DNA from: a virus
Direction: 5' to 3' (one strand)
Length of the DNA stretch: 64,000 nt
Virus record (IMG/VR): IMGVR_UViG_3300044701_003953
Span: 143,521 to 207,520 of that record
Position 1 is the first letter of the stretch. Every line of letters starts with the position of its first letter. The notes below the pieces were generated by a model, which searched no databases, had not been told where the DNA came from, and saw only the letters and a program-made list of their open reading frames with translations. Of the stretch, positions 8,339 to 47,589 are shown piece after piece. The position numbers and the translations under genes are program-made.

Positions 8339-9442
8339 TTATACCAATAAAATTCTTCGTTTGGCGAAATTTTGGACTTCTTTGGGCAATAGATCAAACA
8401 TTCGATCTCCTCGTAGTTTATCCATCATCAACGTATGTGCAATGGTATGGTGGAACAGATCTTCTGTGTTGCCTATCATTGATCGAGCCTGCTGATAGAC
8501 ACGTCGATTGTGATTTTGATTTCTGTCCGGCGCAAAATCAATTTCAGGCAGGAGGTCCTTTAACTCATAGGGCAAAGTCGACAAAGAAAGGAAATCCGGT
8601 CCTTCTAATACTGATGTATTTAGAGTTATAGATTTATCTCGGCACCAATCTACCAATTCTTGTAGGAACCATATATTCAGTAGTCCCAGTGTGCAAAAAA
8701 CAAATATTTCTGTGTCGGGTCTTTGCTTCCGATATGCCAGTAGAGATTCTATATTTTTTTCTGCACGATCCCAGTCTAATCCCGATCTTACCATCTGCCC
8801 GGGCTCTCCGATAGCTTCCAGACTGGCATAGACTCTTGTCTTCTTAAAATGTTTCCAAAGTTCGGTGACTTCTTTTCCTCGGTAGTTTAAAGTAGTGAGG
8901 TTGGTATTGTATCTCAATGAAATGTTTCTGCTCCGACCATTTTCGATCAATGTATCTAACAATTTCCAATGATCGGGGTTTAGCATAGGTTCGCCGCCAG
9001 TGAAATAGATTTCTGTAAGTTCTTCGTTAGTGATTCCCTCTAACATAGGCCATACATTGAATCTTTCAAATTCGAGATCTCCGACCAAACTAGTCCAACT
9101 GCTACTGAAGTTGGGACTACAGATACGGCAAGTGAGATTGCAGGTGTTGTTGTTTCTGAGGTCGAGATATTTTATCGAATCTCTTTGCCCAACATCGTCA
9201 CCATAGTTTTTCCTGTAGGATTCTAAACCATTTTGCTCGTCTTCCCAACAACCTCGACAGCCTTGGGGACATGACCCCGATAACATCTCTTGCTGTAGAT
9301 CCTTAAAAGTATCTACCCCTTGGAAATTTTCCCCAGATCTGGCTAACTTGTAATCATAGATACAGCAAGGAGCAATCTTACCGTCGGGGTAGACAGTGAT
9401 GCTATTCCAAACGGCATTACAGATAAAAGGCTTGCCTGTCAT
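8339..9442 (-). CDS. Radical SAM enzyme with an N-terminal twitch-like Cys cluster
   Basis: 367 residues. The radical SAM iron-sulfur motif CNLTCRIC (Cys101, Cys105, Cys108) is followed by the SAM-binding YFTGGEPML segment. Before it lie further Cys residues (8, 26, 27, 58, 62, 65) in the pattern of an auxiliary cluster domain, as in twitch/SPASM enzymes that modify peptides or small molecules, but placed at the N-terminus. The gene starts directly at the stop of a methyltransferase gene, so the two are probably co-expressed. Substrate is unknown. It does not look like QueE, which is shorter with a different Cys motif. Confidence 0.8.
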   Translation of the reverse strand: MTGKPFICNAVWNSITVYPDGKIAPCCIYDYKLARSGENFQGVDTFKDLQQEMLSGSCPQGCRGCWEDEQNGLESYRKNYGDDVGQRDSIKYLDLRNNNTCNLTCRICSPNFSSSWTSLVGDLEFERFNVWPMLEGITNEELTEIYFTGGEPMLNPDHWKLLDTLIENGRSRNISLRYNTNLTTLNYRGKEVTELWKHFKKTRVYASLEAIGEPGQMVRSGLDWDRAEKNIESLLAYRKQRPDTEIFVFCTLGLLNIWFLQELVDWCRDKSITLNTSVLEGPDFLSLSTLPYELKDLLPEIDFAPDRNQNHNRRVYQQARSMIGNTEDLFHHTIAHTLMMDKLRGDRMFDLLPKEVQNFAKRRILLV

Positions 9443-13412: not shown

Positions 13413-13441
13413 AGTATAGATACTTATTTTAAGATAGTCAA
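13413..13441 (-). promoter_or_regulatory. Sigma-70-type promoter for the DsbA-like gene
   Basis: TTGACT (13441-13436), a 17-base spacer and TATACT (13418-13413). The -35 box overlaps the end of the PP-loop gene. Confidence 0.65.
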
Positions 13442-14607
13442 CCCTGGAAACTTTCTAATAGTTCCATAGCCGCTTCAGTGACTCCGGGTTCCCAGGTATG
13501 GTATCCTACCCAATCATGATCGTAATACATCGGGGAGATCCACACTATTCTGCGCTCGAAATCGGGACTTTTAGATGCCACTTTGATTTTTTGGTCGGCA
13601 TAAGAACGATTGCCATCAAACTCGAAAATATATCGTTTAGCTTCGAGTTTCACACCGGCACGGCCCTTGTGTACATGTTCGAAATGATGCTGTAAATTAC
13701 TGTAACTCCATTGCACGAATTCGTCTGTATTAAAATAACTGTACTGTGCATAATCACTATGGTGTTTTCTGTCGATCGGCTTCTTGAAATCTTTGCGAAG
13801 GTGCATAAATGGTCTCACTATTGCGGTAGCCCATTTAAAATTTACATAATGCCACCACCACCAATCTGAGATAGTCTTGACATTTTCGGGATTGACTTCT
13901 ATGAGGTTTTCGGTGATCCTTCTTACATACCATTGACCGAATTCTGGATCGGCATTGATGCTTTGATCACGATCAAAGAAACTAGCGATGAGATGCTGAT
14001 TGTCTTTAAATGGTAGGAGATGTTGATCGTTATTGACCAGATGCTTGAACGCCGGAAGAGTTGGCCCAAACACAGCGTCGCCTGGATCGCCATGTATGAG
14101 TATGTATTTTTCTAAGGTTTCATTGCACATCTCAAAATCTAACAGTTGTATGTATCGGAATCTTCCTGATATATATTTTCTAAAAAAGTCAAAGTTTTCG
14201 ATGATCGATTCGGTGCTCATGACTATATCAATGATCCCTAAATCGGATTCGGAAAGATTCTTTAAGAATGAAACTAATACAGCAGTAGAATCAATTCCGC
14301 CGCTCCACATCAGTGCTATTCTTTTGTTTGCCTTTTTAGCGTAGTTAAAGACTTCTATAGCTCGTTGATCAAACAAGTCGTGTAACTTATAGTCGACAAA
14401 TTTAAGTTCAGGCATAGGATAATGATGATCGTATGGTGCTTGCCATGGAGTGGAAAAATTTCCAGTCCTGGCACGCAGATCTTTAGCGCCTATCACCAAG
14501 TGCGCAAACTTTGACCATAGGTGCCCGCTTCGGTGCTTGATATCAAGTTCGGCTACTAGATGATTGTCAACAGCTAGGCTGTTTTTTATACCTTCAACAT
14601 GGTTCAT
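13438..14607 (-). CDS. Asparagine-synthase-type PP-loop ATPase, copy 1 of a duplicated module
   Basis: 389 residues. ALMWSGGIDSTAVL contains the PP-loop SGGIDS (102-107) of AMP-forming N-type ATP pyrophosphatases such as asparagine synthase, which adenylate a carboxylate before amide formation. There is no glutaminase domain (no N-terminal Cys), so ammonia or another nucleophile must come from elsewhere. An LIHGDPGDAVFGPT segment and a DWWWW cluster are shared with copy 2 at 15285-16445, as are RARxGxFxTPWxAP and the C-terminal AKRYIFE. It overlaps its partner gene by 14 bases. Substrate unknown; too divergent to be a true asparagine synthase. Confidence 0.75.
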   Translation of the reverse strand: MNHVEGIKNSLAVDNHLVAELDIKHRSGHLWSKFAHLVIGAKDLRARTGNFSTPWQAPYDHHYPMPELKFVDYKLHDLFDQRAIEVFNYAKKANKRIALMWSGGIDSTAVLVSFLKNLSESDLGIIDIVMSTESIIENFDFFRKYISGRFRYIQLLDFEMCNETLEKYILIHGDPGDAVFGPTLPAFKHLVNNDQHLLPFKDNQHLIASFFDRDQSINADPEFGQWYVRRITENLIEVNPENVKTISDWWWWHYVNFKWATAIVRPFMHLRKDFKKPIDRKHHSDYAQYSYFNTDEFVQWSYSNLQHHFEHVHKGRAGVKLEAKRYIFEFDGNRSYADQKIKVASKSPDFERRIVWISPMYYDHDWVGYHTWEPGVTEAAMELLESFQG

Positions 14608-15277
14608 TTTTTAGAAGTTCAATTGATTTATTGATCGATTCGGTGAAATAGTATGCACTAATAGGTATCAGTCTGATCTTTTTCTCGATGTCTGCTTTAA
14701 TCTCATTGAGAGGACGACTATAATCTAGATCCGATAAAATGCGAAAAAGTATGCCTTGGAATTCTTCGAGTATTTTTTTCGGTACATCTTTGTTGATTAT
14801 TTCTCGATCGACAAACTCTTGTACAGCGACATCATTGGGCACTGTCAAGGATATAAACTTTTTAAACACTCTTAGACCTTTTTTGAGAGTCTCGACCTGT
14901 CGTAGATCCCTATCAAGTATATGATAGTTATGATCTCTAGATTTTTGTATAAAATCAAAAAGGAAATGCATTTTTTCTTTATACTCTATATCGTCCTGCG
15001 TGAACTTAGTCCTTGCTGGCACGAGCCTATATGAAGGATTTGTAAAATACATGTCGATCTCTATCCGTATTTTTTCTCCATTGGCTATAGTGACGTTCAT
15101 GCATCGATCATTGTTCAGGAGATTTGGTCGGTAGTTAACGATGCCGTTTAAATCTACTAGATACAGCAATTCATGGTTCATGGTTATCAACTGCAAATAT
15201 TTTAAACTTTCGTAATCACTGTTAACCATAATGAATCTATTACGAAACGTATTGAACAATGCATATTCATTTGACAT
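14594..15277 (-). CDS. Partner protein of the PP-loop ATPase, copy 1
   Basis: 227 residues from the ATG at 15277, chosen because AAGGA lies 10 bases upstream and because it starts just after the previous stop; longer in-frame starts run deep into the upstream gene. No known domain. It is homologous to the protein at 16442-17179: both share a RFIMVNSDYESLKYLQ-like N-terminus and a central FISLTVPND...FVDREI segment (FVKLTIPND...FVDWEI in the other). The rest is helical and basic. Constant pairing with a PP-loop ATPase suggests a substrate-presenting or carrier subunit. Confidence 0.65.
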   Translation of the reverse strand: MSNEYALFNTFRNRFIMVNSDYESLKYLQLITMNHELLYLVDLNGIVNYRPNLLNNDRCMNVTIANGEKIRIEIDMYFTNPSYRLVPARTKFTQDDIEYKEKMHFLFDFIQKSRDHNYHILDRDLRQVETLKKGLRVFKKFISLTVPNDVAVQEFVDREIINKDVPKKILEEFQGILFRILSDLDYSRPLNEIKADIEKKIRLIPISAYYFTESINKSIELLKNEPC

Positions 15278-15284
15278 AAAACTA

Positions 15285-16445
15285 TTATCCTTTAAAAGTT
15301 TCAAGTCGATAACAAACTTGCTCATTGAGATAGTCTTCCCAACGAAAGTAGCCTTTCCAATTTCGATCAAAGCATATCGGGTTGTCGGATGAAGTGCGAG
15401 TAATGACGTCGGGTGGGGCACCGGCTAACTTTGGTTTATTCTCAAAATAGAATTCATTTTTATCGAGCTCGAAAATATATCGTTTGGCTTCGATCTTGTG
15501 AGACTTCATGCCGTCCTTTAAAAGATTTTTGAGATTGCTATAACTCCAATGCTGGAAGTATTCGGTGTTATAGAAAGTATTTTCTGCGAACGTTTTTTGA
15601 TTTTCGATGCTGATGCCTTTTTTTACATCTTTTTGGGAAAAGATAAAAGGTCTCTGGCAGCTGAATTCCCATTTGTAATTGTAATATGTCCACCACCACC
15701 AATCACTGACGGTAGTCACGTTGTCGGGGTTCACTTCTTCGATGTTATCGGTTATTTTTTTGACTATCCAATTTCCAAAATTTGGAACAGAGTACGGCAG
15801 ATGTTTACCGGGCTGACAGAGATCAATGAGTTTTTTAAAATGTTTTTTATAACTTTCTTTATGTTCGCCACTGATTATCAACTCTCGATATGCAACAGTA
15901 GTTGGGCCGTAGAGACAATCTGCTGGGTCGCCATGCACTAAAATATTTTTATCAAGAAAATCGTCATTAAGGTCTAACAACGAGTAATGGAAACATTTTA
16001 TTTTATTAGAAATAAATTTCATATAAAATTCAAAATTTTCCACCATTGAGCCAGTGTTCATCACCACAGTCAATAATTCGAGATCTGTGCTACTTAGATT
16101 TTTAATAAAAGACGCCAAGACTGCGGTAGAGTCAATACCACCACTCCAAAGTACAAATATTTTTTTATTTGTTTTTTTGGCCACAGAAAATATTTCTAAT
16201 GCTCTTCGATCTAATAGATCTGAGAGAGAATCGTTGATGAATTTGAACTCGGGCGCAGAATAAAAACTATTGCTAGGAGCATTCCACGGAGTAGTGAAAG
16301 TACCCAATCGTGCTCTTAGGTCGTGTACTCCGATAAAACTATCTAGAGTCGATTTCCACATTTTTCCGTAGGGATTTTTTAGGTTGCCGGCAATGTTGAA
16401 GTTGCGCACGTCAACCATGATGGAATCTTCTATTTTTATAGTCAT
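15285..16445 (-). CDS. Asparagine-synthase-type PP-loop ATPase, copy 2 of a duplicated module
   Basis: 386 residues with the PP-loop SGGIDS at 101-106, the LVHGDPADCLYGPT segment, the DWWWWTYYNYKW cluster and the same overall layout as copy 1. By eye the two copies share the active-site blocks but differ widely between them, so the duplication is not recent. It starts 4 bases inside its partner gene (ATGA overlap). The gene is noticeably AT-rich compared with the neighbouring isocitrate lyase gene. Function as for copy 1; different copies may act on different substrates. Confidence 0.75.
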   Translation of the reverse strand: MTIKIEDSIMVDVRNFNIAGNLKNPYGKMWKSTLDSFIGVHDLRARLGTFTTPWNAPSNSFYSAPEFKFINDSLSDLLDRRALEIFSVAKKTNKKIFVLWSGGIDSTAVLASFIKNLSSTDLELLTVVMNTGSMVENFEFYMKFISNKIKCFHYSLLDLNDDFLDKNILVHGDPADCLYGPTTVAYRELIISGEHKESYKKHFKKLIDLCQPGKHLPYSVPNFGNWIVKKITDNIEEVNPDNVTTVSDWWWWTYYNYKWEFSCQRPFIFSQKDVKKGISIENQKTFAENTFYNTEYFQHWSYSNLKNLLKDGMKSHKIEAKRYIFELDKNEFYFENKPKLAGAPPDVITRTSSDNPICFDRNWKGYFRWEDYLNEQVCYRLETFKG

Positions 16446-17179
16446 TGTTCTTTTAACACTGATAGTAAGGTTTTTTTAAAAACATCAGATAAGAATATTT
16501 TTTTCCAATTGGTATTGACGTAGTCCAACTTACCAAATTCCAATGAGTTTATTTTTTCTTCGATGATTTTTTTTGCATCGTCTTTTCGATAGTTTACGTT
16601 AATCAATAAATTTATTATATCTGATTTAAATGGTCTTGCTCGTCGAATAGCGTTGTTTCTAATTTCAATTTCCCAGTCAACAAAGTTATCGATGTTTTCG
16701 TCGTTTGGTATAGTGAGTTTTACAAACTCTTTTAACTCGATAAACCCGTTGATTTCATCGCGGAACCTTCTTTTTTCTTGTTCCTCAAATTCGTCGACGA
16801 TTTTTTCCAGGACGTGCAAAATTTTCTGCAATAACAATAAGTTGGATCTCAATATAGGGTCTGGAGGCGAATGCGAGTCCACGATTTTAGTTAGATGCAT
16901 ACCGGGGTCGGCGTCGAGTTTGATGTGTTTTACTGCTTTTGGTATACAGCCGAACTCATGACAGTTGTTATTGTCTATATTGGAAGTATCTTTTTCAGAT
17001 TCGAATTTTGATATGTTGATACAGAAAAAAAACTTCTGTTTCATAAGCACGAACTGTAACAGCTTCATGACTTTATGATTATCATCTATTAGATAAAAGC
17101 AATTTTCGGGCAACCCAAGAAGACCATATACGTCGGCATCGGATTCGAATCTTCTAAAAAAGGGAAAATGTGCTGTCAT
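16442..17179 (-). CDS. Partner protein of the PP-loop ATPase, copy 2
   Basis: 245 residues, AT-rich gene, first in the four-gene PP-loop operon and preceded by its own sigma-70-type promoter. It has a NCFYLIDDNHKVMKLLQ segment and the FVKLTIPND/FVDWEI block homologous to copy 1. A central insertion not obvious in copy 1 contains Cys, His and Asn residues (NIDNNNCHEFGC). No known domain. The ATG overlaps nothing upstream and lacks a strong Shine-Dalgarno. Confidence 0.65.
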   Translation of the reverse strand: MTAHFPFFRRFESDADVYGLLGLPENCFYLIDDNHKVMKLLQFVLMKQKFFFCINISKFESEKDTSNIDNNNCHEFGCIPKAVKHIKLDADPGMHLTKIVDSHSPPDPILRSNLLLLQKILHVLEKIVDEFEEQEKRRFRDEINGFIELKEFVKLTIPNDENIDNFVDWEIEIRNNAIRRARPFKSDIINLLINVNYRKDDAKKIIEEKINSLEFGKLDYVNTNWKKIFLSDVFKKTLLSVLKEQ

Positions 17180-17207
17180 TTAATTTCTAACTCAACGGTA
17201 GTTTTCT

Positions 17208-17236
17208 ATTTTACTATCTTTTAAAAGATTAGTCAA
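17208..17236 (-). promoter_or_regulatory. Sigma-70-type promoter for the PP-loop operon
   Basis: TTGACT (17236-17231), a 17-base spacer and TAAAAT (17213-17208), 29 bases before the first ATG of the four-gene operon. Confidence 0.7.
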
Positions 17237-17256
17237 TAGACTTATGGTAGATTGTG

Positions 17257-17274
17257 CTGGGCCCGAGGGCCCAG
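17257..17274. terminator. GC-rich perfect inverted repeat after the isocitrate lyase gene
   Basis: CTGGGCCC-GA-GGGCCCAG, an 8-bp stem, lies 34 bases after the isocitrate lyase stop. There is no U-run, so it may be an mRNA 3' end stabiliser or a weak terminator rather than a classic intrinsic terminator. Confidence 0.4.
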
Positions 17275-17308
17275 GTTATGCTAAAATGGTTTTTCTAATA
17301 CGACTTGT

Positions 17309-18592
17309 TCAGTGGAACTGCTCTTCCTCTGTGGAACCTTTGAGGGCTTGTGTGGATGCGTCAGCTTCGATGGTCGTAGTGACAGCGTCGAAGTAACCTG
17401 TGCCTACTTCCCTTTGATGCTTAACAGCTTCAAAACCACGGCTCGCATCCGCGAACTCACGTTCTTGTAACTCCACGAAAGCAGACATACCGTTCCTAGC
17501 ATAACCATGAGCAAGGTCAAACATGCCATGATTAAGAGCATGGAATCCAGCAAGTGTGATGAATTGAAAACGGTAGCCCATTGCTCCAAGTTCACGTTGG
17601 AAACGGCTAATTGTGTCTGCATCTAAGTTCTTCCTCCAGTTGAATGATGGCGAGCAGTTGTAGGCTAACATCTTACCTGGATGGTGCTTGTGTACTTGCT
17701 CTGCGAATTCCTTCGCGAATTGTAAGTCGGGCTTTCCTGTTTCACACCACACGAGGTCTGCGTAAGGTGCGTAGGCGACGGCTCTGCTGACTGCTTGATC
17801 GATTCCGTTACGGGTTCTGTAGAATCCTTCAACAGTTCTTTCACCAGTAAGGAAAGGCTTGTCGTTGTCATCAATATCGCTAGTGATAAGGTCACCGGCT
17901 TCGGCATCAGTTCGTGCAATAACAAGAGTAGGCACGCCCATAACATCACTAGCGAGGCGAGCGGCAACAAGTTTATTGATGGCTTCTCTGGTTGGTACAA
18001 GGACTTTTCCTCCCATGTGTCCGCATTTTTTAGCAGACGCTAATTGGTCTTCGAAGTGTACACCAGCGGCACCAGCTTCGATCATGGCCTTCATCAGTTC
18101 AAATGCGTTTAACACGCCACCAAAGCCGGCTTCGGCATCAGCTACGATGGGTGCGAAGAAGTCGTGATCATCTTTACCTTCCATCCACTGTATCTGATCG
18201 GCACGACGAAACGTGTTGTTGATCTTGCGGACCACGGCGGGCACAGAGTTCACTGGATACAAGCTCTGATCAGGATACATCTCTCCGGCCAAGTTGGCAT
18301 CACCTGCCACTTGCCAACCGCTTAGGTATATGGCTTTGAGTCCTGCTTTGACTTGCTGTAACGCCTGCATGCCTGTCAACGCACCCAAGGTGTTGACATA
18401 GTCCTCAGTGGTCAGTAGGTTCCATAATTTCTTGGCTTGGTCTATCGCGAACTGATCGGGATATACACGACTGCCTTGCAAGCGAACTACATCATCGGCG
18501 GTGTAGTCTCGTTTGATGCCCAACCACCTTGGGTTGGTACTCCAATCCTGTTGTATCTGATAGGCTTTCCAGCTACGAGTGTTTTCAGACAT
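17309..18592 (-). CDS. aceA: Isocitrate lyase
   Basis: It cleaves isocitrate to glyoxylate and succinate, the first step of the glyoxylate shunt. The 427 residues (E. coli AceA has 434) carry the catalytic signature KKCGHMGGK with Cys190, the SGWQ segment (91-94), the metal-binding DAEAGFGG region, the CSPSFNW block and TLAGFH, all intact. GAGGAG lies 8 bases before the ATG and a perfect TATAAATA late motif lies upstream, so it is set up as a late phage gene. No malate synthase is seen in the window. The gene appears less AT-rich than the PP-loop genes beside it, which fits acquisition from a proteobacterial host. Confidence 0.95.
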
Positions 18593-33210: not shown

Positions 33211-33236
33211 AAAAATGCCCCTTGCGGGGCATTTTT
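33211..33236 (-). terminator. Intrinsic terminator after the TctC-like genes
   Basis: AAAAATGCCCC-TTGC-GGGGCATTTTT, an 11-bp stem with a T-run on the minus strand. It overlaps the stop codon of the first TctC-like gene. Confidence 0.85.
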
Positions 33237-34071
33237 ATTTGGCGACATAACTCTTGATATATCGATCAATCCACACTTCGACACGATCTAGCAGTGCTTT
33301 ATCGCTGGTGGTGGTTCTTGCTACATAATTTCCTTGGTCTAGTAGACCCACAAATCCCTTGGACTCTAGTGCCGACTTGACTCGAGCACGTTGATCTGCG
33401 CTGTCAACGCCATTGACTAATACCGTGACAGGGATACGCAAATCGGGAATTTTCATCTTAAGCTGTTTTCCGATGTAGTTTTGATCCACAGGATTGGTAC
33501 TGGCCACACATTCAATGGCACCCGAGGACTCTTGTTTCTGCGCAGCAGAAGCACCCAATAGGCCTAGGTCAAGGTCGCCGCTCATGATCTGCAGCAAGAC
33601 ATCCTTGCTGCCTGAAAATGGTAGAGCTTTGATGCTGGTGCCATTTTGTGCATTGATGTCAGCCACGATGGGTCCGGGTTGCATCACTGATGGAATACCA
33701 AAAGTGGCATTGGCAGAACGGAAATTCTTGCCGGATCCTTTTTTGGTGCAGATCTTGAAAAATTGTTCGCCGTAAAACACGATGTTCTTTTCTGTGATCT
33801 GTGGTTTGCAAATCTGCCCTTTGGCAACAGATGCAAAAGCCAGGCTGGTGCCATACACCAGAACACTGTCCTTGGTATCCTGGAACTTCTTGACGCCGTC
33901 GAGACAACTATCAGCTTGGTAAAACTTCGAGCCCGCAAGATTTTCTTGAAGAGTCATAGCAACAGTAGTGGTTGGACTGTTCCTTGATGAAGTAGAAATC
34001 ACTGTGATGTCGGAGGCTTGAGCCATCAAGGGCATAAAGGCAGCAATTACAGCCAATTTGATTTTTTTCAT
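33235..34071 (-). CDS. TctC/Bug-type periplasmic solute-binding protein, paralogue 1
   Basis: 278 residues with a clear signal peptide (cut after AQA) so periplasmic. TctC-type proteins deliver tricarboxylates or other acids to TctA/TctB. It has the family-like two-lobe pattern with MQPGPIVADINAQNGTSI and LLQIMSGDLDLGLLG. It is shorter than the usual 320. It shares long identical DNA stretches with paralogue 2 although other parts differ widely. The ATG is just after the stop of paralogue 2. Ligand unknown; citrate-like acids are typical of the family. Confidence 0.7.
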   Translation of the reverse strand: MKKIKLAVIAAFMPLMAQASDITVISTSSRNSPTTTVAMTLQENLAGSKFYQADSCLDGVKKFQDTKDSVLVYGTSLAFASVAKGQICKPQITEKNIVFYGEQFFKICTKKGSGKNFRSANATFGIPSVMQPGPIVADINAQNGTSIKALPFSGSKDVLLQIMSGDLDLGLLGASAAQKQESSGAIECVASTNPVDQNYIGKQLKMKIPDLRIPVTVLVNGVDSADQRARVKSALESKGFVGLLDQGNYVARTTTSDKALLDRVEVWIDRYIKSYVAK

Positions 34072-34074
34072 TTA

Positions 34075-34902
34075 TTATTTCCCGTAGTTTGAATGAGATC
34101 GTTGGATATATGCATTTACATTCTTTACCAGTTCCTCGGAACCTTGGTAAGTCACATTTGCATACTCACCTTTATTTAATAGAGTTTTTACGTCGTTGGA
34201 AATAATTCCTTGTTGTACCAGAGACAGAGCCTTGCTATCTTTGATGTTGTGAAGTATCAAAGTTTGTATGCGGATATCGGGCTGTTTCATTTTCAAAGCA
34301 CTACCTAAAAACTTCGAGCTTTTGGGATCTGTGGATGCGATACACTCGATGGTGCCTAGTTTTTCCTGGGAGGCTGCGGTGCTGGTTCCGATCAGACCGA
34401 GATCAAGGTCGCCGCTCATGATCTGCAGCAAGACATCCTTGCTCCCGGCAAAAGGCACAGGGCGTAGCGTAGTGGCGTTTTGTGCATTGATGTCGGCCAC
34501 GATGGCGTCTACAGGTTGCACAGAGGCCATCCCAAAAGTGGCATTGGCAGAACGGAAATTCTTGCCGGATCCTTTTTTGGTGCAGATCTGATAGTACTGC
34601 TCGCCATAGAACAAGATATTATTGGCTCGGATACTGGTGTCACAGGGTTTGTTTTTTCTCAAACCCGTGATGGCCAAATTGGTTCCATAGACTAGTAGAC
34701 TGTTGTTGGTGCTTTCATATTTGGCCACAGCAGCCTGGCAGCTTTCGCCCTGATGGTACGCACTACCAGGGATATTTTTTTGCACAGTCATGGCCAAAGT
34801 GGCCACCGGCGATGTTTTTGCTTGTGGATTGATTACAAGGGTTTCAGCAGCTACCGAGACCAGCGGCAGGCATGCTAGAGCGGATAAGATGATTTTTTTC
34901 AT
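34075..34902 (-). CDS. TctC/Bug-type periplasmic solute-binding protein, paralogue 2
   Basis: 275 residues with a signal peptide (cut after VAA), middle gene of the TctA, TctC-like 2, TctC-like 1 operon. It has the same fold elements as paralogue 1 (VADINAQNATTL, LLQIMSGDLDLGLIG) and the shared ICTKKGSGKNFRSANATFG block. AAGGA precedes the ATG. Two different binding proteins with one TctA is a known arrangement for Bug-family systems and would widen the substrate range. Confidence 0.7.
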   Translation of the reverse strand: MKKIILSALACLPLVSVAAETLVINPQAKTSPVATLAMTVQKNIPGSAYHQGESCQAAVAKYESTNNSLLVYGTNLAITGLRKNKPCDTSIRANNILFYGEQYYQICTKKGSGKNFRSANATFGMASVQPVDAIVADINAQNATTLRPVPFAGSKDVLLQIMSGDLDLGLIGTSTAASQEKLGTIECIASTDPKSSKFLGSALKMKQPDIRIQTLILHNIKDSKALSLVQQGIISNDVKTLLNKGEYANVTYQGSEELVKNVNAYIQRSHSNYGK

Positions 34903-34920
34903 GGTATTTTTCCTTTTGAA

Positions 34921-36207
34921 TCAGATAGTGGAGATGACCTGTAGAGCAGTCCATATGACTTTGTCCCCCAGGATAAACGCGAATAGCATGGGAATAGGAT
35001 CGATGTTCTTTTTATCTAGTGCATAACCGATCGCGCTAAAAAACAAGAACAAGCAAACATATTTCAATGCTCCCAACTCTGAATAGTAGAAATCTATCAA
35101 CCCCAGGCCTGCTATCAACAACAACAGTATGAATCTAAATCTCGACTGTAGAAACAACAGGGCACGAGCATAGACGTCCAACAAACTGGTACTCAGGAAG
35201 TAGTAGATCACAGCCAGCAACACACAGGCCAGTTGTATGGTCAACAACATACGACCCACTTCTTCGAGATTGGCCAGGTCCGGCCAGTCAATGAGTTTGG
35301 TCTGCAGGATCTGTAACACTATGACTTCACCCACAGTGATGGGTATGCCCACGATCAACAACGGTAACATGCTAGTGATCATGGCCGAGTTGTTGGCCGA
35401 TTCTGCCGAAGTGACTTTTTTACTCAAATCTTTTTCGGTGTGGAACGCCAAGTTGCTGCTCAAAGTCGCCGACGGTCCTGGTATGAGCCCGATCATGCTG
35501 CCAATGACGCCGCCTTTGACAGCACTGGTCCATGGCATATCACCAATCACAGATTCAGCATTACGAGATTGCCATATTTCACTGTCATATTTTTTAAACA
35601 GCTCGGGCACGATCAACAAGCCCAAGGCCATGGAAAAAAACGTGGTGTTCTGGAAAGTCTCTTGTAAGTGATACCAGGCTTCTGGCAAAGCATAATTGTT
35701 TTTTGGGCCCAGTAGAATACCAAACATCACTAACACCAATGCCACCGGTCTGTTTTTACTGAGTAATACAAAAAACAACAATGCGAATCCGAAGATCACG
35801 GCCTTGACCCAGATTTTGTTGAACCAAAACATGAAATCGTACGACCCCAGCACAAACACAGCCACACATGCCACTGATGCAGCCACAGATGCTACCACTG
35901 ATCCACGTGCGGTGTATTTGATCAGTTTGATACGATCTTTGATGCCCAAGGGTTTGATCGAATTCAAGTAGATCAAACTCGACGTTTCGCCAGGTACACC
36001 AGTGGTTATGGCAGCCACGCTGCCAAAATACTGCGACCCAATGATCACGGCTGCCCAGTATAGGAATATGTCAAACACCGACATGAATTCCACAAACGGG
36101 AACATCAACATCATGCCCAAAGCAATAGGCATGGCCGGGAAAAGTCCTACCAACATCCCGGCCATGATTCCTGAAACAAAAGTTATGATTGTTGAAAGTT
36201 CGATCAA
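34921..36207 (-). CDS. tctA: TctA-like membrane subunit of a tripartite tricarboxylate transporter
   Basis: 428 residues, about ten to twelve hydrophobic segments, with the family repeats VGLFPAMPIALGM and GLIPGPSATLSSNLAF (two half-repeat motifs around a GLxPG core). TctA usually has about 500 residues, so some loops are missing. The start is a TTG with weak AGAG upstream; later ATGs would remove the first membrane segment. No TctB was found. The operon continues into two TctC-like genes and ends in a terminator. In bacteria this is the secondary transporter for citrate-type acids. Confidence 0.8.
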   Translation of the reverse strand: MIELSTIITFVSGIMAGMLVGLFPAMPIALGMMLMFPFVEFMSVFDIFLYWAAVIIGSQYFGSVAAITTGVPGETSSLIYLNSIKPLGIKDRIKLIKYTARGSVVASVAASVACVAVFVLGSYDFMFWFNKIWVKAVIFGFALLFFVLLSKNRPVALVLVMFGILLGPKNNYALPEAWYHLQETFQNTTFFSMALGLLIVPELFKKYDSEIWQSRNAESVIGDMPWTSAVKGGVIGSMIGLIPGPSATLSSNLAFHTEKDLSKKVTSAESANNSAMITSMLPLLIVGIPITVGEVIVLQILQTKLIDWPDLANLEEVGRMLLTIQLACVLLAVIYYFLSTSLLDVYARALLFLQSRFRFILLLLIAGLGLIDFYYSELGALKYVCLFLFFSAIGYALDKKNIDPIPMLFAFILGDKVIWTALQVISTI

Positions 36208-37894: not shown

Positions 37895-37927
37895 AAGTTA
37901 TCATATCACTCAATGGAGACTTCCCCA

Positions 37928-39016
37928 ATGACACAATTAACTGGAAAAAATGGACGTAGAAAAGTCCGTTGGATCATAGCTCACTTCCCACTAGAACTGT
38001 TTGTTCGTGCGGCCAAGGCATTTCAGCTCGAAATTGAAAAACTTTGCCCCGGGCAGTTCGACATCGAGATCCATACTATCGGTTCTTATCTAAGAGCTTA
38101 CGGTAACGAACTCACTGAAGAACAGAAAAAGAATCTTGGATTCGTGGCCCCACGTATTCCTGGACTCGAAGATCCCAAGAACACAGTTGCAACTAAAAAC
38201 CCAGACAGCCTAGTTTTTGCTAAAGACTTCAACCAACTCAAAGTTTGGTGGAAGACATTGTTTGAGGTGATGAAAGAGCAGAAGTTTGAGATGAGCCAGA
38301 CACAGGTCAACATCGTTGGTAGCCATCTGCACACCAACTTCCATGCCATCGATCTTCCTTACCTTTTCAAAGATCACGATCACGTAGCTAAAGTACTCGA
38401 CGGCGAAGTCGGACAAAAGATCAGCGACCAAGTAGCAAAAGACACTGGTGTAAAAGCACTGGGTTACACATACTCGGGCGGATATCGAATCATCGGTAGT
38501 ACCGAGGGTATTACAAAACTTGATGATCTTAAAGAAAAGAAATTCATCAGCTTTACTGCACCTAGCAATATGTTGTTCAGACTCGCAGACGTACCACGTC
38601 TTCCACGTTACCTCACAACAGCAGAAGACCTCGGTGATATCGCTGAGCAAGGTGGTGCCATTGAGACCACATATCTGCGCTTTGCTGGTAAGAATGTTCT
38701 TAAAACAAACCACAGCATGTTCATGACATCGATCCTGACCAGCGAAAACTTCATAAATTCGTTAACAGAAGACCAGCGTGCCGCTTTTACAGAAGCTGCA
38801 CATCGTGTTGCCAAAATCGAAAGACTTTGGTCTGTTGAAGATGCCGCCAAGTATGAGCAGGATGCTGAAAGCCGTGGCGTTACTATCGTTCCAGTTAACG
38901 AAGAAGACGACACAAGACTCAGAACAGCAGCCAAGGAAATTTACAAGAAAGAAAATCTTGAGAAGATTGGTATCGACTACACATTAGTAGAAGAAATCAT
39001 CAAACTCGGTAAGTAA
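37928..39016 (+). CDS. DctP-like TRAP transporter binding-protein fold without signal peptide
   Basis: 362 residues from the ATG at 37928 (GGAG 9 bases upstream; an ATG five codons earlier has none). The layout follows the DctP family: YTYSGGYRIIGS with KLDDLKEKKF, then an LKTNHSMFMTSI region and the long C-terminal helix with LTEDQRAAFTEAA. DctP proteins bind dicarboxylates in the periplasm. Here the first residues are basic and not a signal peptide, so it would remain in the cytoplasm or be exported another way. A shared terminator follows. It may have a new role, for example as a cytosolic metabolite binder. Confidence 0.65.
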   Translation: MTQLTGKNGRRKVRWIIAHFPLELFVRAAKAFQLEIEKLCPGQFDIEIHTIGSYLRAYGNELTEEQKKNLGFVAPRIPGLEDPKNTVATKNPDSLVFAKDFNQLKVWWKTLFEVMKEQKFEMSQTQVNIVGSHLHTNFHAIDLPYLFKDHDHVAKVLDGEVGQKISDQVAKDTGVKALGYTYSGGYRIIGSTEGITKLDDLKEKKFISFTAPSNMLFRLADVPRLPRYLTTAEDLGDIAEQGGAIETTYLRFAGKNVLKTNHSMFMTSILTSENFINSLTEDQRAAFTEAAHRVAKIERLWSVEDAAKYEQDAESRGVTIVPVNEEDDTRLRTAAKEIYKKENLEKIGIDYTLVEEIIKLGK

Positions 39017-40818: not shown

Positions 40819-41988
40819 CTATTTTTTGGTGAAAATATAGATTCCTTCGTGCTTGAAACCATTGGATTTTTTATTATTACCTTGCCCTGGGCGCACATTC
40901 AACATCATCTTGATTTCACGTTGATACTGAAATCCACACTTTTCGCTTAATTCACGCCAGCGATCTACTATTTCAAACTTTTCTTTACCAGTACGATAAT
41001 CTGCTATGTTTACAGCATATACACCATCATCATCAAGAGCACGATGGATCATATTAAGAGTGGGTTCTACATAGAGTTCAAACCAAGCGTCAAGATTGCT
41101 ACAACGATTCATACACTGGGTAGGTTCGTCGCTATAGGTTTCAAGATTAAAATAAGGTGGGCTACTGAAAGCGGCCTGATAAAATCCTGGTTCGGGATCA
41201 AAATCTTCGCTAGGCATGCAATTCATATCATATCCGTTGCCCTGCCCGCATTCGGTTAGAAGTTCTCCTAACGCTACCAGACCTTCATAGGTTTTGGTAT
41301 TTGGGTCGATACCTGTGTAATGGTATCTCATGCGGCTAGTCATGGCTCCCATCATACGACCGCCATATCCTGAACTGAAGTCTAATAGATTTCCAAACAA
41401 TGTAGGACAGATATATTCCCACACCGCCCGAGCATTCATAGGTTTGAAATTCTGTATACTACCGCCTGATACCAAATCAAAGGCTCGACGCAGATTTTTC
41501 GGCACTACCGCCAAATCTCCTTCATCTCTATGTTTGTAACAGAGATTGATAGCACGACGTAGTTTATTGTCATTCATGAATCTACCACGCAGACTGACCT
41601 CTGTATTGTCTCTGGTATATGCATCTTGAATGTTTTCGAACCAGAACCTGCCCAAGGTTAGTCCTTCATTGTTACCAACCTGCAGGATGCCATTGTCTAT
41701 CCTTTTTTGTTGTCGGGCTAGATCAAATATGGCCTCCTGGCAACCTTCGAGATTGAAGTAATATATGGGAAGGATGTTCTTGTTGCGATAGATATCAAAA
41801 ACTTCTTGTTCGATATCCTCCTTGCCAGCATCGTCTGCAGCCAGCCATGCTTCTTTGCTCAACTGATGCAATCTCGGCATTTCAACTTCGTAGCCGGTAC
41901 ATATCTTATCCGTGGGAGTATAACCCCATCGTTGGCACAGTTGGTTGTAATAATCTAGTATTTTTTGATTAGTTGTAATACTTGTCAT
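40819..41988 (-). CDS. DNA adenine/cytosine methyltransferase-like protein with SPPY motif
   Basis: 389 residues from the ATG at 41988 (AAAGAGA upstream). Motif I appears as LLDFSSGYGGRMMGA and motif IV as SSPPYFNLETY, in the alpha/gamma order of amino-methyltransferases. The N-terminal 170 form a helical domain that may bind DNA. It is the last gene of a cassette with a helicase-nuclease and a second methyltransferase-fold protein and overlaps it by 20 bases. Probable role: modifying phage DNA; the base and site are unknown. Confidence 0.75.
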   Translation of the reverse strand: MTSITTNQKILDYYNQLCQRWGYTPTDKICTGYEVEMPRLHQLSKEAWLAADDAGKEDIEQEVFDIYRNKNILPIYYFNLEGCQEAIFDLARQQKRIDNGILQVGNNEGLTLGRFWFENIQDAYTRDNTEVSLRGRFMNDNKLRRAINLCYKHRDEGDLAVVPKNLRRAFDLVSGGSIQNFKPMNARAVWEYICPTLFGNLLDFSSGYGGRMMGAMTSRMRYHYTGIDPNTKTYEGLVALGELLTECGQGNGYDMNCMPSEDFDPEPGFYQAAFSSPPYFNLETYSDEPTQCMNRCSNLDAWFELYVEPTLNMIHRALDDDGVYAVNIADYRTGKEKFEIVDRWRELSEKCGFQYQREIKMMLNVRPGQGNNKKSNGFKHEGIYIFTKK

Positions 41989-43171
41989 ATATCTCTTTGA
42001 CTTTGGCAAGATACTTAATGTTAGGTATCTTGCTCCAAAAATCTTTGGTATGGGTTTTGACCAACACAGTTTTGAACAGTATATTGTAGCACAGTTCGTT
42101 GTTGATTGCATCCGTCAGTTTGTCGAATTCTCTTTTACTCATAGCGACCCAGGGTACTTGAGCACTACAAGCTAGTTCTCCTTTGGCATCATAATAAAAG
42201 TTTGGAATACGACCGGGATTTCCATTTTTTGGTACCATGAGTTTAGGAACACCATACCCCATCCTATCAGTGACATCACGTTTACTGATCATCATGATTT
42301 TGACTTTGTGCTGTTTGTTATAAGTAGTTTTTAGTTTTTTACCACTAATAACATCATCTAACCATTCACGAAATACTAATGGAACAGATCCCGCTGCGGG
42401 ATTGAATTTTGAGTTATCTTCAGGGCCTGATTCAGAACGATAACCTTCAAACCCTGTCTGTAAAACTTCTTGAACAAACTCGAATCCAGCAGCATCTTCA
42501 GTGGGCACTGTTTTTGGATTATCGATTACCAGAGAATTTTTTCCGCAGATGAATTTTACTTTTTTATTCTTTTTAATGGCAGGTACATGGATCAGGCACA
42601 TAGGAGTCATTTTGACTCGACGAAGAAACTGATAGGTGTTGATTTCAGTTAATTTGCTTTCGACATATCGATGCGAATTTGATTTTGTGATTACGATAAC
42701 ATGTTCACTTAAATTTTTATAGTGTTCAATAAATTCATTTGTTGTGTCAAAATCGATGGATCCAAATGTATAAGTGGTTTTCTTTTCATTTTGGAAACAA
42801 TCTTGTACCTCGATATTAGGCTCAAAAGACATATCGCCCACCGCATGCTTGATATTGGCTCGGGCGATCCTGGCCTGGATAGGTTCTTTATCGCCCAAGA
42901 AAATCTGATTCTTGAAAATATGCCATAACCTATCCTGTTCATCGGGGATGGCATCCTGGAGATCGATCATCAATTGTTCGGCTAAGATCAGGGCATCAAG
43001 ACCCGTGCCGCATTGACTGTCCTGGTATGTAGTAGCAAGATTCCGTCGATCCTTCACTGGAATCATCGCCACTAGTTTACGAGCATCACCTTCGTTGGTG
43101 ATGCTCTGTGCACCGGACCTGTTGAAGTACGGAATCTTTTCGATCTGCCGAGAAATCTTGTTAGATAGCAT
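41969..43171 (-). CDS. Methyltransferase-fold protein lacking the NPPY catalytic motif
   Basis: 400 residues. YQDSQCGTGLDALILAEQL is a good motif I of N6-adenine methylases (SAM-binding DxxCGTG), and the C-terminal half (PKLMVPKNG, VPWVAMSKREFDKL) resembles target-recognition parts of Eco57I-like enzymes. The expected NPPY is not found; the region reads GSIDFDTTNEFIEHY. It could be a specificity or regulatory subunit. It overlaps the helicase gene by 11 bases. Confidence 0.6.
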   Translation of the reverse strand: MLSNKISRQIEKIPYFNRSGAQSITNEGDARKLVAMIPVKDRRNLATTYQDSQCGTGLDALILAEQLMIDLQDAIPDEQDRLWHIFKNQIFLGDKEPIQARIARANIKHAVGDMSFEPNIEVQDCFQNEKKTTYTFGSIDFDTTNEFIEHYKNLSEHVIVITKSNSHRYVESKLTEINTYQFLRRVKMTPMCLIHVPAIKKNKKVKFICGKNSLVIDNPKTVPTEDAAGFEFVQEVLQTGFEGYRSESGPEDNSKFNPAAGSVPLVFREWLDDVISGKKLKTTYNKQHKVKIMMISKRDVTDRMGYGVPKLMVPKNGNPGRIPNFYYDAKGELACSAQVPWVAMSKREFDKLTDAINNELCYNILFKTVLVKTHTKDFWSKIPNIKYLAKVKEIYDKYYN

Positions 43172-45449
43172 TGAATTGTCCTAACGCAAGATCCATACCG
43201 ATCACATCAATAGCAGGCAAAATCGTCTTCCATTCTCTGGGCATCAATCCTGTGATCGCTACTACCAGTCCGGGATCCTTGAAGTTCACGACATCATACA
43301 TGGATCCTATTTTTAATCCATCGCCTTGCGCTATCTGAGATAGCTCATAGACTTGTTTCAATGCGTAGCGTATCCTGAGTTCGGTGAGATCTTGTTCTTC
43401 TTGTGTTGTGGTGCCACCGGGTTTGTTCTTTTTGCCTTTCTTTTGATTGGAGCCCCGTACGAGATCATTTTCATTGAGCTGTGTGGTAGCTGACACAGAA
43501 TTTGAGTCTTTGTTCTTATCGGCCATCAATTGTTTGATCTCGTCGGTGATGCAGGCGGATTTCACGAAACTACCGATTCGTTCTATGTAATTTCCTATGT
43601 TACTGAGGAATCTCTGCTTGAGATCAACACCGTCGACAATGTTCCAACCATTGTCAGTGTAGTCATAGATGTCACTGCATTCGCCAAACTCAGCGGCCAC
43701 TTGCTCGGGATCACGACCGGTTGCGTCGGCCTTTCGTTGTATATGCTGATACATCACGCTCACGAAGCGTTCGGGGTTGTAGTCAAACACGATGACTTCT
43801 TGTTTGTCGCCGTCGGACCATGGAGTCTTGCAACGGAACGAACCTTGGAAATAGTCTTCGGCGCTCTTGGCATCATTGATCTGATGTACAGCCCACCATT
43901 GCTTAATGCTGGTGCCTTCCAGGAAACGTCCACAGGTAAGTGTGATGGTCCCGATGAAGTCGCTCTTACCTGATTCTACAGCATCGATACGGGTCTGTAC
44001 GTCACCGATATCACTTACACTTGCTATATTGTCTTTGTTGCCTTTATCTGTGGCCAGAATGATGTCATACTTCTTGAAGTAAGGGTGTTCCTGTAGCATC
44101 CGAGCCACTGCTTTGATAGCCTTTACATTTTTAGGCAGGACCCATAGCGTGTGCTTGGTGACTTTTTCCACAATGTTTTCAAACTTTGGTGGCAGATTTT
44201 TATAACCACGTAGCCGGACATGATTGATGAGTTCGTTTACCGCGTCTCGATATACCAGCTGATCGCCTTGGGTAGAAAAGATACCACGGGCGCCGAGATT
44301 GAAGTTCTCGTCATTGACCAGAGATCGGATCTTTGCAGGTACAGAGATCAAGGCCCAATTGATACGAGACTTGTAACGGAACTGTCGAGTCTGTTCGTCA
44401 TCAAGGTCATTGACAGCCAGTAACTCATCACGGATTTTCTGCTCGTCGATGTAATCAAAACTGTAGATGGATTCTTCTGGGAAACGATTGCTCAGCAGGG
44501 TTTTGTAAGGTGTGCCGCTGAGTTCGATCCAGAATTTGGATGTGAGATTGTCCCAAAACTTTTTGGTCTTTTCGGTGTTGGTGGCAAAGTGTTGCTCATC
44601 AAAGATCACTAGATCCCAGTCCGTAGACACGATCTGTTTCAGCAGATCGCTGGTGTTGGTTTCTAGATGCTTGGCGGCAAACTGCAGACTGATGGCCACA
44701 AGATCACATTCACCTGTACCAAACTCAATCTTGGATTTTTTGAGATCATCGTAGTTGTGGAAGATGTAGTCACAGTAGTCCACATGCTCTTCCTCTCCGC
44801 CGCGGGCCAGCACAGTCCAACTGGGGATAGCACCGGGTTTACCCGTGACGATCAATACCTTTTTGAACCCCAATGCCTTGACGATGGCATGGGAGATCAG
44901 GCATTTGCCTGCCCGCATGATGGCGTTGATCAGTATGGCTCGATCGCCAGCTTTGAAACGTTCGCCGGCCCAATCAATGATCTTGCGCTGATAGTCAAAT
45001 AAGAGATAATTGGTGATGGCGGATTTACCGGTGAGGATTTTGTTGATCAAACGATCCATAATTTCCATTGCTTCTTCACTGGTCTTGCAATCAGTGAAGT
45101 AAATCCACTCACGATCTTTGTCATCTCGATTTTTCGGATAACCGAGTTTTTTCAATTGAGCATGAAGGTACTTGTCGCGGTATTGCACAGGAATATGCCA
45201 TTGTTTGAGAACAACCGGAGTTTCTGCTACACCGGTGGTGTCTGTCTGCGCGATGCGAACCTCGGCACGATATTCCTTAGTTTCGCCGACCTTGGCAAGT
45301 ACTGGAAAAATCTTACCGTCTTTAGTACGACGTGTTTCGTCCTTGTACCGCTCAGTACTCCACATATAGATGGTGTGCATCTTGCCTGCGTTAGGTTGCT
45401 TAGAAAATTGACGTTTGGCAGATAGTGCCCGATCGGTGAGTTTTGCCAT
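43161..45449 (-). CDS. T5orf172/GIY-YIG-like nuclease fused to an SF2 helicase
   Basis: 762 residues. Residues 20-145 follow the T5orf172 (GIY-YIG-like) pattern: HTIYMWS, AKVGET, an LHAQLKKLGYP segment and REWIYF. The helicase follows with motif I AIMRAGKCL (Cys in place of the Ser/Thr of GK[ST]), motif II FDEQH, motif III LSGTPYKTL, and C-terminal LTCGRFLEGTSI and FQGSFRCKTP. Such fusions act as restriction or recombination translocases. First gene of the cassette with methyltransferase-fold genes and its own sigma-70-type promoter; no ribosome site before the ATG. Confidence 0.7.
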   Translation of the reverse strand: MAKLTDRALSAKRQFSKQPNAGKMHTIYMWSTERYKDETRRTKDGKIFPVLAKVGETKEYRAEVRIAQTDTTGVAETPVVLKQWHIPVQYRDKYLHAQLKKLGYPKNRDDKDREWIYFTDCKTSEEAMEIMDRLINKILTGKSAITNYLLFDYQRKIIDWAGERFKAGDRAILINAIMRAGKCLISHAIVKALGFKKVLIVTGKPGAIPSWTVLARGGEEEHVDYCDYIFHNYDDLKKSKIEFGTGECDLVAISLQFAAKHLETNTSDLLKQIVSTDWDLVIFDEQHFATNTEKTKKFWDNLTSKFWIELSGTPYKTLLSNRFPEESIYSFDYIDEQKIRDELLAVNDLDDEQTRQFRYKSRINWALISVPAKIRSLVNDENFNLGARGIFSTQGDQLVYRDAVNELINHVRLRGYKNLPPKFENIVEKVTKHTLWVLPKNVKAIKAVARMLQEHPYFKKYDIILATDKGNKDNIASVSDIGDVQTRIDAVESGKSDFIGTITLTCGRFLEGTSIKQWWAVHQINDAKSAEDYFQGSFRCKTPWSDGDKQEVIVFDYNPERFVSVMYQHIQRKADATGRDPEQVAAEFGECSDIYDYTDNGWNIVDGVDLKQRFLSNIGNYIERIGSFVKSACITDEIKQLMADKNKDSNSVSATTQLNENDLVRGSNQKKGKKNKPGGTTTQEEQDLTELRIRYALKQVYELSQIAQGDGLKIGSMYDVVNFKDPGLVVAITGLMPREWKTILPAIDVIGMDLALGQFNAI

Positions 45450-45478
45450 TGTTGTTTGTTTTGATTACTATATCTTAT

Positions 45479-45507
45479 ATTATAACCGAAATGCGATTAC
45501 TGGTCAA
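45479..45507 (-). promoter_or_regulatory. Sigma-70-type promoter for the nuclease-helicase cassette
   Basis: TTGACC (45507-45502), a 17-base spacer and a perfect TATAAT (45484-45479), 29 bases before the ATG at 45449. Confidence 0.8.
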
Positions 45508-45529
45508 CTAATAGAAAAGTTAGTATACA

Positions 45530-46084
45530 CTAACCTATCACTAAGTGCCGGAAATAGTCAAAATGCTGTTCTAGGGTCCAGGCATCGGGATCAATGGCTC
45601 GTCCATCGTAGGTCTCGAACTGGGCTTCGAACACTTGTGTATACCTCCGGAATGGAAACCAAACATCCGGGGTGTGGCTGGCCCACCCCGCTTCTTTGAG
45701 TGCGTGATGTTTGGTACGGCTCAGCGTCACAGTAGGACAATTGAGTGCTTCGTCTATGGTGATTACTCCGGCGATCATCATATCTCTGATACGAGCCGCC
45801 GGGATCAAGTGCTCAAAGTCTGCGTCCTGATCCACGCCCACTTCTCGATAGTGTGCGCCGATGTTTTCCTTGATGGCGTAGCCGTGATAACGTCTCAGCA
45901 AGTTGTCCATGTCGTCGCGTACTAATCTCAGGGTTTGTTGGTCGTTGGTGGAGTTGCGATAGATCTCCAGTATCTCGGACAACCTACCCGAACAGTAGCG
46001 GTAGGTAGCACGATAACTCTCGGAGTTCCTGGGTGTGCGCCCATATACTGGCGCCACGAAGTTCTCGACTAGATTGCGATCCAT
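45530..46084 (-). CDS. Unknown phage protein with EHLIPA segment
   Basis: 184 residues, Arg/Tyr-rich N-terminus, then FEHLIPAARIRDMM and a long C-terminal region with WFPFRRYTQVFEAQFETYDG. The EHLIPA segment slightly resembles the first strand of some HNH-like nucleases, but the other ligands are not clear. It overlaps the HNH gene by one base. Function not assigned. Confidence 0.6.
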   Translation of the reverse strand: MDRNLVENFVAPVYGRTPRNSESYRATYRYCSGRLSEILEIYRNSTNDQQTLRLVRDDMDNLLRRYHGYAIKENIGAHYREVGVDQDADFEHLIPAARIRDMMIAGVITIDEALNCPTVTLSRTKHHALKEAGWASHTPDVWFPFRRYTQVFEAQFETYDGRAIDPDAWTLEQHFDYFRHLVIG

Positions 46085-46497
46085 TATTTTACTTCCTCGA
46101 AATGTTTATAAAACATGGGATTGACTATCCGATATCTTTGCGTATTGTCTTTAAAAATCTTGGTTTTTTTGTTGTGACAATTGGCACACAATACTACTAG
46201 ATTATCCTGATTGTCGTTGTGTTTATTACCATCCCAATGGTCAATAGTAAGACTGTCTGTATTTGGATCACCGCATACCCAACCAAGTCTACCATCTTGA
46301 TTTTCACAACCGCCACGACTCTTCATGAACATGTCACGACTGATTTTTTTAACCGTGCGGTGTGGATCACAAAAAGTTTTCCATTTAACGCCGATCGTGC
46401 CATCTGCTTTGATCCATTTCTTGTGATAACCAACATGATCGTTACAATCAGGCATAGCGCACTTCGGCGCCCAATTTTTTATGATATTGTGTTTCAT
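46084..46497 (-). CDS. HNH endonuclease
   Basis: 137 residues. LTIDHWDGNKHNDNQDNL followed by LCANCHNKKT gives the HNH core (His, Asn, His) with Cys pairs, plus further Cys in the N-terminal part (CAMPDC, CDPH) for structural zinc. Free-standing HNH proteins in phages are often homing endonucleases or packaging-associated nickases. No split gene is seen beside it. It overlaps neighbours by one base each. Confidence 0.85.
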   Translation of the reverse strand: MKHNIIKNWAPKCAMPDCNDHVGYHKKWIKADGTIGVKWKTFCDPHRTVKKISRDMFMKSRGGCENQDGRLGWVCGDPNTDSLTIDHWDGNKHNDNQDNLVVLCANCHNKKTKIFKDNTQRYRIVNPMFYKHFEEVK

Positions 46498-47534: not shown

Positions 47535-47589
47535 ACTTTTCTCCTTTCGATGCCCGTACAATACGGGATTAGTTTCAGTATGAGTATGT

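Follow-up and report, generated by a model that had tools for sequence, protein, structure and literature searches.

Relatives of asparagine synthetase that lack a glutaminase domain have only recently been shown to make amide-linked bases in phage DNA: CmoY of Synechococcus phage S-B43 ligates glycine to 5-carboxymethylcytosine, the carboxylated base being made by CmoA and CmoX (PMC12783734). Further uncharacterised ligase clusters with other possible amines were reported in phages (PMC12783734), and this was the only paper that we found on cupin, asparagine synthetase and hypermodification together. Here, we describe a further module, in a large uncultured bacterial virus, within the last 64,000 bases (hereafter, the window) of the 207,520-base IMG/VR virus record IMGVR_UViG_3300044701_003953 (hereafter, the record). 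It pairs an asparagine-synthetase-like ATPase (PP) with a partner protein (PA) and is present in two tandem copies, PA1-PP1 and PA2-PP2. This module is real, conserved and undescribed, and is set apart from other phage asparagine-synthetase-like amide ligases by its partner family, its tandem paralogy and the rapid divergence of its partner; with it, phages probably form amide bonds by a route not described before.

CmoY is the nearest characterised analogue in mechanism. Like PP, it is a phage-encoded asparagine-synthetase homologue devoid of a glutaminase domain, carries an SGGxDS motif and a G..GxD..YG block, and matches PP in proposed chemistry, whereby a carboxylate would be adenylated and an amine then joined to it. 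However, CmoY has 271 amino acids (aa) and an Ile where AsnB has Glu348 (numbered on the mature protein, as checked), whereas PP (386–389 aa) has an Asp there and extra N- and C-terminal parts; CmoY has no known partner and sits with CmoA and CmoX, whereas PP has PA, without CmoA or CmoX. The PP profile gives CmoY 3 bits, only superfamily motifs being common to both, and phmmer returned no match between them. Thus, the predicted chemistry of PP resembles that of CmoY, but PP is not assigned to the CmoY family. The PP family is a separate and larger one, with a dedicated partner whose fold has no PDB match, up to three tandem copies, and relatives linked to cupin genes across many bacterial phyla.

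With AsnB, beta-lactam synthetase, carbapenam synthetase and TsnB9, PP has in common the fold of the synthetase domain and the order of the active-site blocks, but it lacks their N-terminal glutaminase-type domain, is approximately 17% identical to them, and has a separate partner gene instead. Lasso-peptide and macrolactam cyclases, which go with a precursor peptide and an RRE, likewise carry a fused glutaminase-like N-terminal domain that is absent from PP. The best matches in PDB (Foldseek) of the PP1 structure model (61 sequences; predicted local distance difference test, pLDDT, 93.2; predicted template modelling score, pTM, 0.92) were the TsnB9 amidotransferase, human asparagine synthetase, carbapenam synthetase and AsnB; these matches cover most of PP1 and score weakly (E 4e-3 to 1e-2, prob up to 0.99). 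An hhalign comparison of PP sequences from phages and bacteria with an AsnB alignment (prob 94.7, E 6.4e-8) placed SGGIDST on SGGLDSS and HGDPADCLYG on SGEGSDEVFG. Sequence searches of PDB gave chance-level matches only, including prion-protein rows (E 0.16 and above) that we discarded as a meaningless, composition-like match. In Pfam, PHROG and NCBIfam, neither PA nor PP reaches a cut-off: PP has only sub-threshold matches to PP-loop families, and scores 14.7 bits against a cut-off of 267 for the glutamine-hydrolysing AsnB family.

A first-pass annotation, made by a model from the letters of the window, had recorded SGGIDS, HGDPxDxxxGPT and DWWWW motifs in both ATPases and a common core in both partners. 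These were recovered in PP1 and PP2, and in PA1 and PA2 as F[VI]xLT[IV]PND...FVDxEI. Among 95 PP homologues (61 phage and 34 bacterial), the SGGxDS of the PP-loop is invariant. Asp173 of PP1, at the AsnB Glu348 site, is acidic in all 95 (Asp in 54 and Glu in seven of the 61 phage sequences, Glu in 34/34 bacterial ones), and Asp176, the counterpart of AsnB Asp351, is Asp in 89. Lys317 and Lys337 are both invariant; Lys337 comes in the right order for AsnB Lys449, although the alignment is weak at that stretch. The same annotation had stated that the ATPases lack a glutaminase domain, which holds: no such domain precedes the ATP site, PP contains no N-terminal class II glutaminase with its catalytic Cys1, and the PP-loop ATPase is now assigned to the amide-forming branch. 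From these sequence features, we are confident that PP is a remote relative of asparagine synthetase, within the synthetase branch of the ATP pyrophosphatases and without a glutaminase. PP would probably make acyl-adenylates and then amides, with an amine that does not come from a built-in glutaminase.

The PA1 model (pLDDT 89.4, pTM 0.85) combines an alpha/beta part (approximately 100 residues) with a long helical hairpin. It did not prove to be an unrelated known protein, as there is no match among PDB folds (best E 2.2); in a viral library, it matched only uncharacterised proteins of uncultured phages (best E 5.9e-7). PA also changes fast. Between the window and a related locus, L004 (L-numbers designate related loci), identity falls from 92% for the DNA polymerase gp43 to 69% for PP2, 60% for PP1, 45% for PA2 and 42% for PA1. 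Between L003 and L004, non-synonymous divergence (dN) is 0.37, 0.26 and 0.11 for the three PAs versus 0.14, 0.12 and 0.03 for their PPs and 0.03 for gp43, i.e. approximately two to four times higher in PA than in its own PP in each module.

The pairing of PA and PP is near-constant. The first-pass annotation had described it as constant and proposed a search for co-occurrence in other phages, in which a partner family never found beside PP-loop genes would have counted as a refutation; this did not happen. Over 22 whole records (approx. 2.2 Mb), each of the 30 PA matches adjoins a PP match and none lies elsewhere; the PA profile was built partly from the tested loci, so that their recovery was expected and the informative part is the lack of matches elsewhere. 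Seen from the ATPase, the pairing is looser, PP occurring without PA in four of the 22 records, two of which share the same module. Among the loci kept first (72 out of 247 related IMG/VR stretches found by a profile scan; a single-protein scan gave 16), a profile-recognised PA lies directly upstream of 65/112 ATPase open reading frames (ORFs), and most divergent ATPases have a similar-looking ORF there. PA evolves too fast for single PA proteins to have revealed anything new in searches of virus contigs. Trees of cognate PA and PP are in agreement; over 56 cognate pairs, PA and PP distances are correlated (Spearman 0.717, permutation p 0.0005), and swapping modules within the same phage lowers the correlation to 0.648 +/- 0.016 (p 0.0005); the divergence of PA and PP is therefore specific to the module and not merely to the phage.

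The duplication of the pair as a unit, also proposed by the first-pass annotation, is supported. Identity between the paralogues is 42% for PP1 and PP2 (386 aa; E 6e-111) and 20% for PA1 and PA2 (E 4e-8). In the PP tree, three types form clades across phages (support 0.86 for PP1-type, 0.997 for PP2-type and 0.997 for a third type), and the duplications are therefore older than the split of these phages. A two-component system, as first suggested, is probable.

The four genes are co-directional on the minus strand (17236 to 13438; table 1), in the order promoter-like site, PA1, PP1, PA2, PP2, which bears out the partner–ATPase–partner–ATPase array in an early-type operon previously described. 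The module is placed between this promoter and an 86-aa gene that precedes gp43. The listed ORF of PA2 extends to 15421 only through open frame; a Met-Ser-Asn-Glu-Tyr-Ala start lies at 15277, 7 bp (base pairs) past the PP1 stop. Successive junctions are a 4-bp overlap, a 7-bp gap and a 14-bp overlap, and this close spacing suggests translational coupling. Promoter-like matches over the whole region are at chance level (16 versus 15.1), but a comparable site precedes the module in L005, L007, L009, L013, L035, L049 and L051, where it matches at 10–12 of 12 positions (8.1 +/- 0.8 in control windows), and the lower-boundary promoter is kept 56–64 bp before the 86-aa-type gene in six relatives (L007, L009, L010, L012, L013 and L014). 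In the IMG/VR loci, the module usually lies just upstream of an 86-aa-type gene and DNA polymerase, as one, two or three tandem copies, while divergent members occupy other genome positions.

Table 1. Positions in the window of the module genes, their active-site motifs and the flanking promoters.
Feature	Position	Strand	Remarks
Promoter TTGACT-17-TAAAAT, sigma-70-type (early-type)	17208..17236	-	upstream of module
PA1, partner protein, 245 aa	16442..17179	-	alpha/beta N-terminal part and long helical hairpin; fold without PDB match
PP1, asparagine-synthetase-like ATP pyrophosphatase, 386 aa, without glutaminase domain	15285..16445	-	
PP1 PP-loop SGGIDS, aa 101-106	16128..16145	-	invariant in 95/95 homologues; Ile104 in 93/95
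PP1 HGDPADCLYGPT, aa 171-182	15900..15935	-	counterpart of AsnB SGEGSDEVFGG; Asp173 at AsnB Glu348 position
PP1 DWWWW, aa 248-252	15690..15704	-	
PP1 Lys337-x-Lys339	15429..15437	-	Lys337 invariant in 95/95; probable AsnB Lys449 counterpart, judged from position
PA2, partner protein, 227 aa, PA1 paralogue	14594..15277	-	
PP2, PP1 paralogue, 389 aa	13438..14607	-	
PP2 PP-loop SGGIDS, aa 102-107	14287..14304	-	
PP2 HGDPGDAVFGPT, aa 172-183	14059..14094	-	
PP2 DWWWW, aa 248-252	13852..13866	-	
Promoter TTGACT-17-TATACT	13413..13441	-	-35 over PP2 stop codon; lower module boundary; drives 86-aa gene before gp43

On a narrow balance of probability, we consider that each PA–PP pair forms an amide ligase with two components that is expressed early, and that its copies diverged after an ancient duplication. 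PP would turn a carboxylate into an activated acyl-adenylate, which it would next couple to an amine (free ammonia, an amino acid or another small amine). PA would bind its own PP and, standing in for the missing domain, probably supply or position one substrate. The whole pair would have been duplicated or triplicated long ago, and the copies would then have diverged, most likely towards different substrates of one pathway. Some observations weigh against this scheme: the PP fold matches PDB entries at TM-scores of 0.2–0.4, the best E being 4e-3; searches of the record for enzymes that install the handle in known DNA pathways (QueC, CmoA, C5-methyltransferase, TGT/DpdA) found none; and PP occurs without a recognisable PA in L006/L018, L040–L048, L053 and L055, so that PA is not indispensable for every PP. 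As for the target, we rank a phage DNA base about level with a small metabolite or peptide, a host protein or RNA coming next.

The module could add amines to a carboxylated base of the phage DNA, the handle being installed by an unrecognised enzyme, a possibility that we regard as doubtful. CmoY offers a precedent in T4-like phages, the other uncharacterised ligase clusters mentioned above have other possible amines (PMC12783734), and the module sits beside gp43 with an early-type promoter. Against this, CmoA (TIGR00740), C5-methyltransferase (PF00145), QueC (PF06508) and TGT/DpdA (PF01702) are all absent from the record, which may be incomplete, and phmmer found no relative of CmoA, CmoX or CmoY in it or near any PP locus. 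The 7-deazaguanine systems built on QueC/Gat-QueC and DpdA (PMC6884629) also rely on PP-loop ATPases for phage base modification, but the QueC model is unmatched here and there is neither DpdA nor a full preQ0 pathway. The first-pass annotation had pointed to DpdA-like and radical SAM neighbours: the radical SAM gene is real (8339–9442), but no DpdA/TGT relative was found in the record, and a preQ0 route is not supported, with a single QueD-like PTPS protein and no QueC. A nucleobase target is conceivable, but the genome lends it no positive support. The QueD/PTPS-like protein itself is encoded at 138525–138995 of the record (minus strand), without QueC or TGT partners.

Synthesis of an amide in a small molecule or peptide, within a metabolic or natural-product-like pathway whose ancestral setting would be the cupin-linked bacterial one, is likewise doubtful but conceivable. 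Full-length bacterial PP homologues occur in Bacteroidota, Gammaproteobacteria, Planctomycetes, Verrucomicrobia and candidate phyla. These homologues (Tenacibaculum, Aquimarina, Neolewinella and Planctomycetes; Candidatus Kaiserbacteria without cupin) have the same invariant residues as phage PP, but differ in their surroundings, usually a cupin gene together with a small upstream gene of another sort. A cupin gene lies at or near the ATPase in 28/46 bacterial loci and in 10 divergent phage loci, and Rieske, VOC, TctC/TctA and DctP genes are found near divergent phage PP (gene names away from the window were partly read by eye, not all by profile). The record itself encodes TctA, two probable TctC-like proteins, three DctP-like proteins and an isocitrate lyase. 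However, it contains no cupin of the bacterial-PP-linked kind, and DctP, matched in 15/22 related phage records, is not significantly close to PP over all records (p 0.19), the p of 0.018 in the divergent subgroup being post hoc. The bacterial upstream proteins are not claimed as PA homologues, a lone suggestive alignment to divergent phage PA (E 0.001, prob 20%) being insufficient.

Somewhat less probable still is that the module serves host take-over or counter-defence by modifying a host protein or RNA, with PA as a fast-evolving target-recognition subunit. The early-type promoter, the lack of any tRNA gene found in the phage and the divergence of PA beyond that of gp43 and PP (window versus L004, and L003 versus L004) go in this direction. 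Yet, fast change of PA would fit a substrate- or target-facing role and also relaxed constraint or exchange between phages by recombination, and there is no link to a particular host target.

Sulfur transfer or other ATP-pyrophosphatase chemistry, of the LarE, MnmA, ThiI or TilS type, is very unlikely. LarE, whose ATP-pyrophosphatase core is common to PP, forms the next group of structural matches after the asparagine-synthetase types, on the ATP core only and with modest scores, and weak NCBIfam matches to LarE and CysD were obtained. However, PP has no conserved sacrificial cysteine, and both the Glu348-type block and the alignment over the full length point to asparagine synthetase. Indeed, in neither PP nor PA does the conservation of any cysteine exceed approximately 64% of members (the best PP column has Cys in 39/61 phages and Gln in 34/34 bacterial homologues), which argues against both glutaminase and persulfide chemistry. 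That PA could be an inhibitor or antitoxin of PP instead of an enzyme subunit is highly improbable: PA does precede PP, evolve faster and diverge in a cognate-specific manner, but up to three tandem pairs exist per phage and several phages have PP without PA.

The PP family is common in environmental virus contigs and missing from the searched isolated-phage records. Indeed, tblastn of PP1 and two other members against 50,697 phage records gave no relevant match to the ATPase, the lone exception being a 25% match annotated mnmA in Pseudomonas phage Cygsa01. The module would thus escape notice in work on cultured phages. Returning to the two-component amide ligase, it could speculatively represent a new phage strategy, which isolated phages would lack but which would be widespread among uncultured T4-like ones. 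In it, paralogous two-subunit ligases, each with a fast-evolving specificity subunit of new fold, would act early in infection on a single class of target, to which they would link different amines or acids. If true, this strategy would be most interesting with phage DNA bases as the target and, if PA sets specificity, the tandem copies would be a natural experiment in redirecting amide ligation.

Several related loci have features of their own. In L006 and L018, a single PP stands beside a Rieske-type oxygenase and a methyltransferase (by eye), with TctC-/TctA-like genes on the opposite strand. In L057, L058, L070 and L071, phage clusters hold two to four different PP-loop ATPases together with a cupin and PA, resembling a biosynthetic cluster; one of them has a SET-domain-like ORF and some have a VOC-like protein. 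In L097 and L107 (Xanthomonas), the PP homologue and a small upstream gene are next to phage baseplate/tail genes, as in a prophage or tailocin. A PP fragment at the end of a Polynucleobacter contig (L075) was not used as a host clue, this contig having chromosomal genes and low coverage and being probably chimeric; a phage ORF of L122 (660–1553, minus strand) shares approximately 45% identity with a bacterial cysteine-synthase-like protein encoded on this Polynucleobacter contig.

Other genes of the window and record may be mentioned. An isocitrate lyase gene, a metabolic gene unusual for a phage, lies directly upstream of the module (17309–18592, minus strand; Pfam ICL, E 8e-108), and ORFs similar to it hold the same position in L004 and L005. 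A TctA-family permease (Pfam, E 5e-34) and two similar, TctC-like ORFs with signal-peptide-like starts (33235–36207, minus strand) form a possible phage-borne tripartite tricarboxylate transporter. The three DctP-family (TRAP) binding proteins are encoded at 37913–39016 of the window (plus strand) and at 16360–17307 and approximately 130930–131898 of the record; the DctP proteins of the record have no evident signal peptide and are apparently cytosolic. Finally, a DNA methylase-like protein, a ResIII helicase, an HNH protein and a ParB-like protein are clustered at 40819–47561 of the window (minus strand), in what could be a DNA-modification or anti-defence island.

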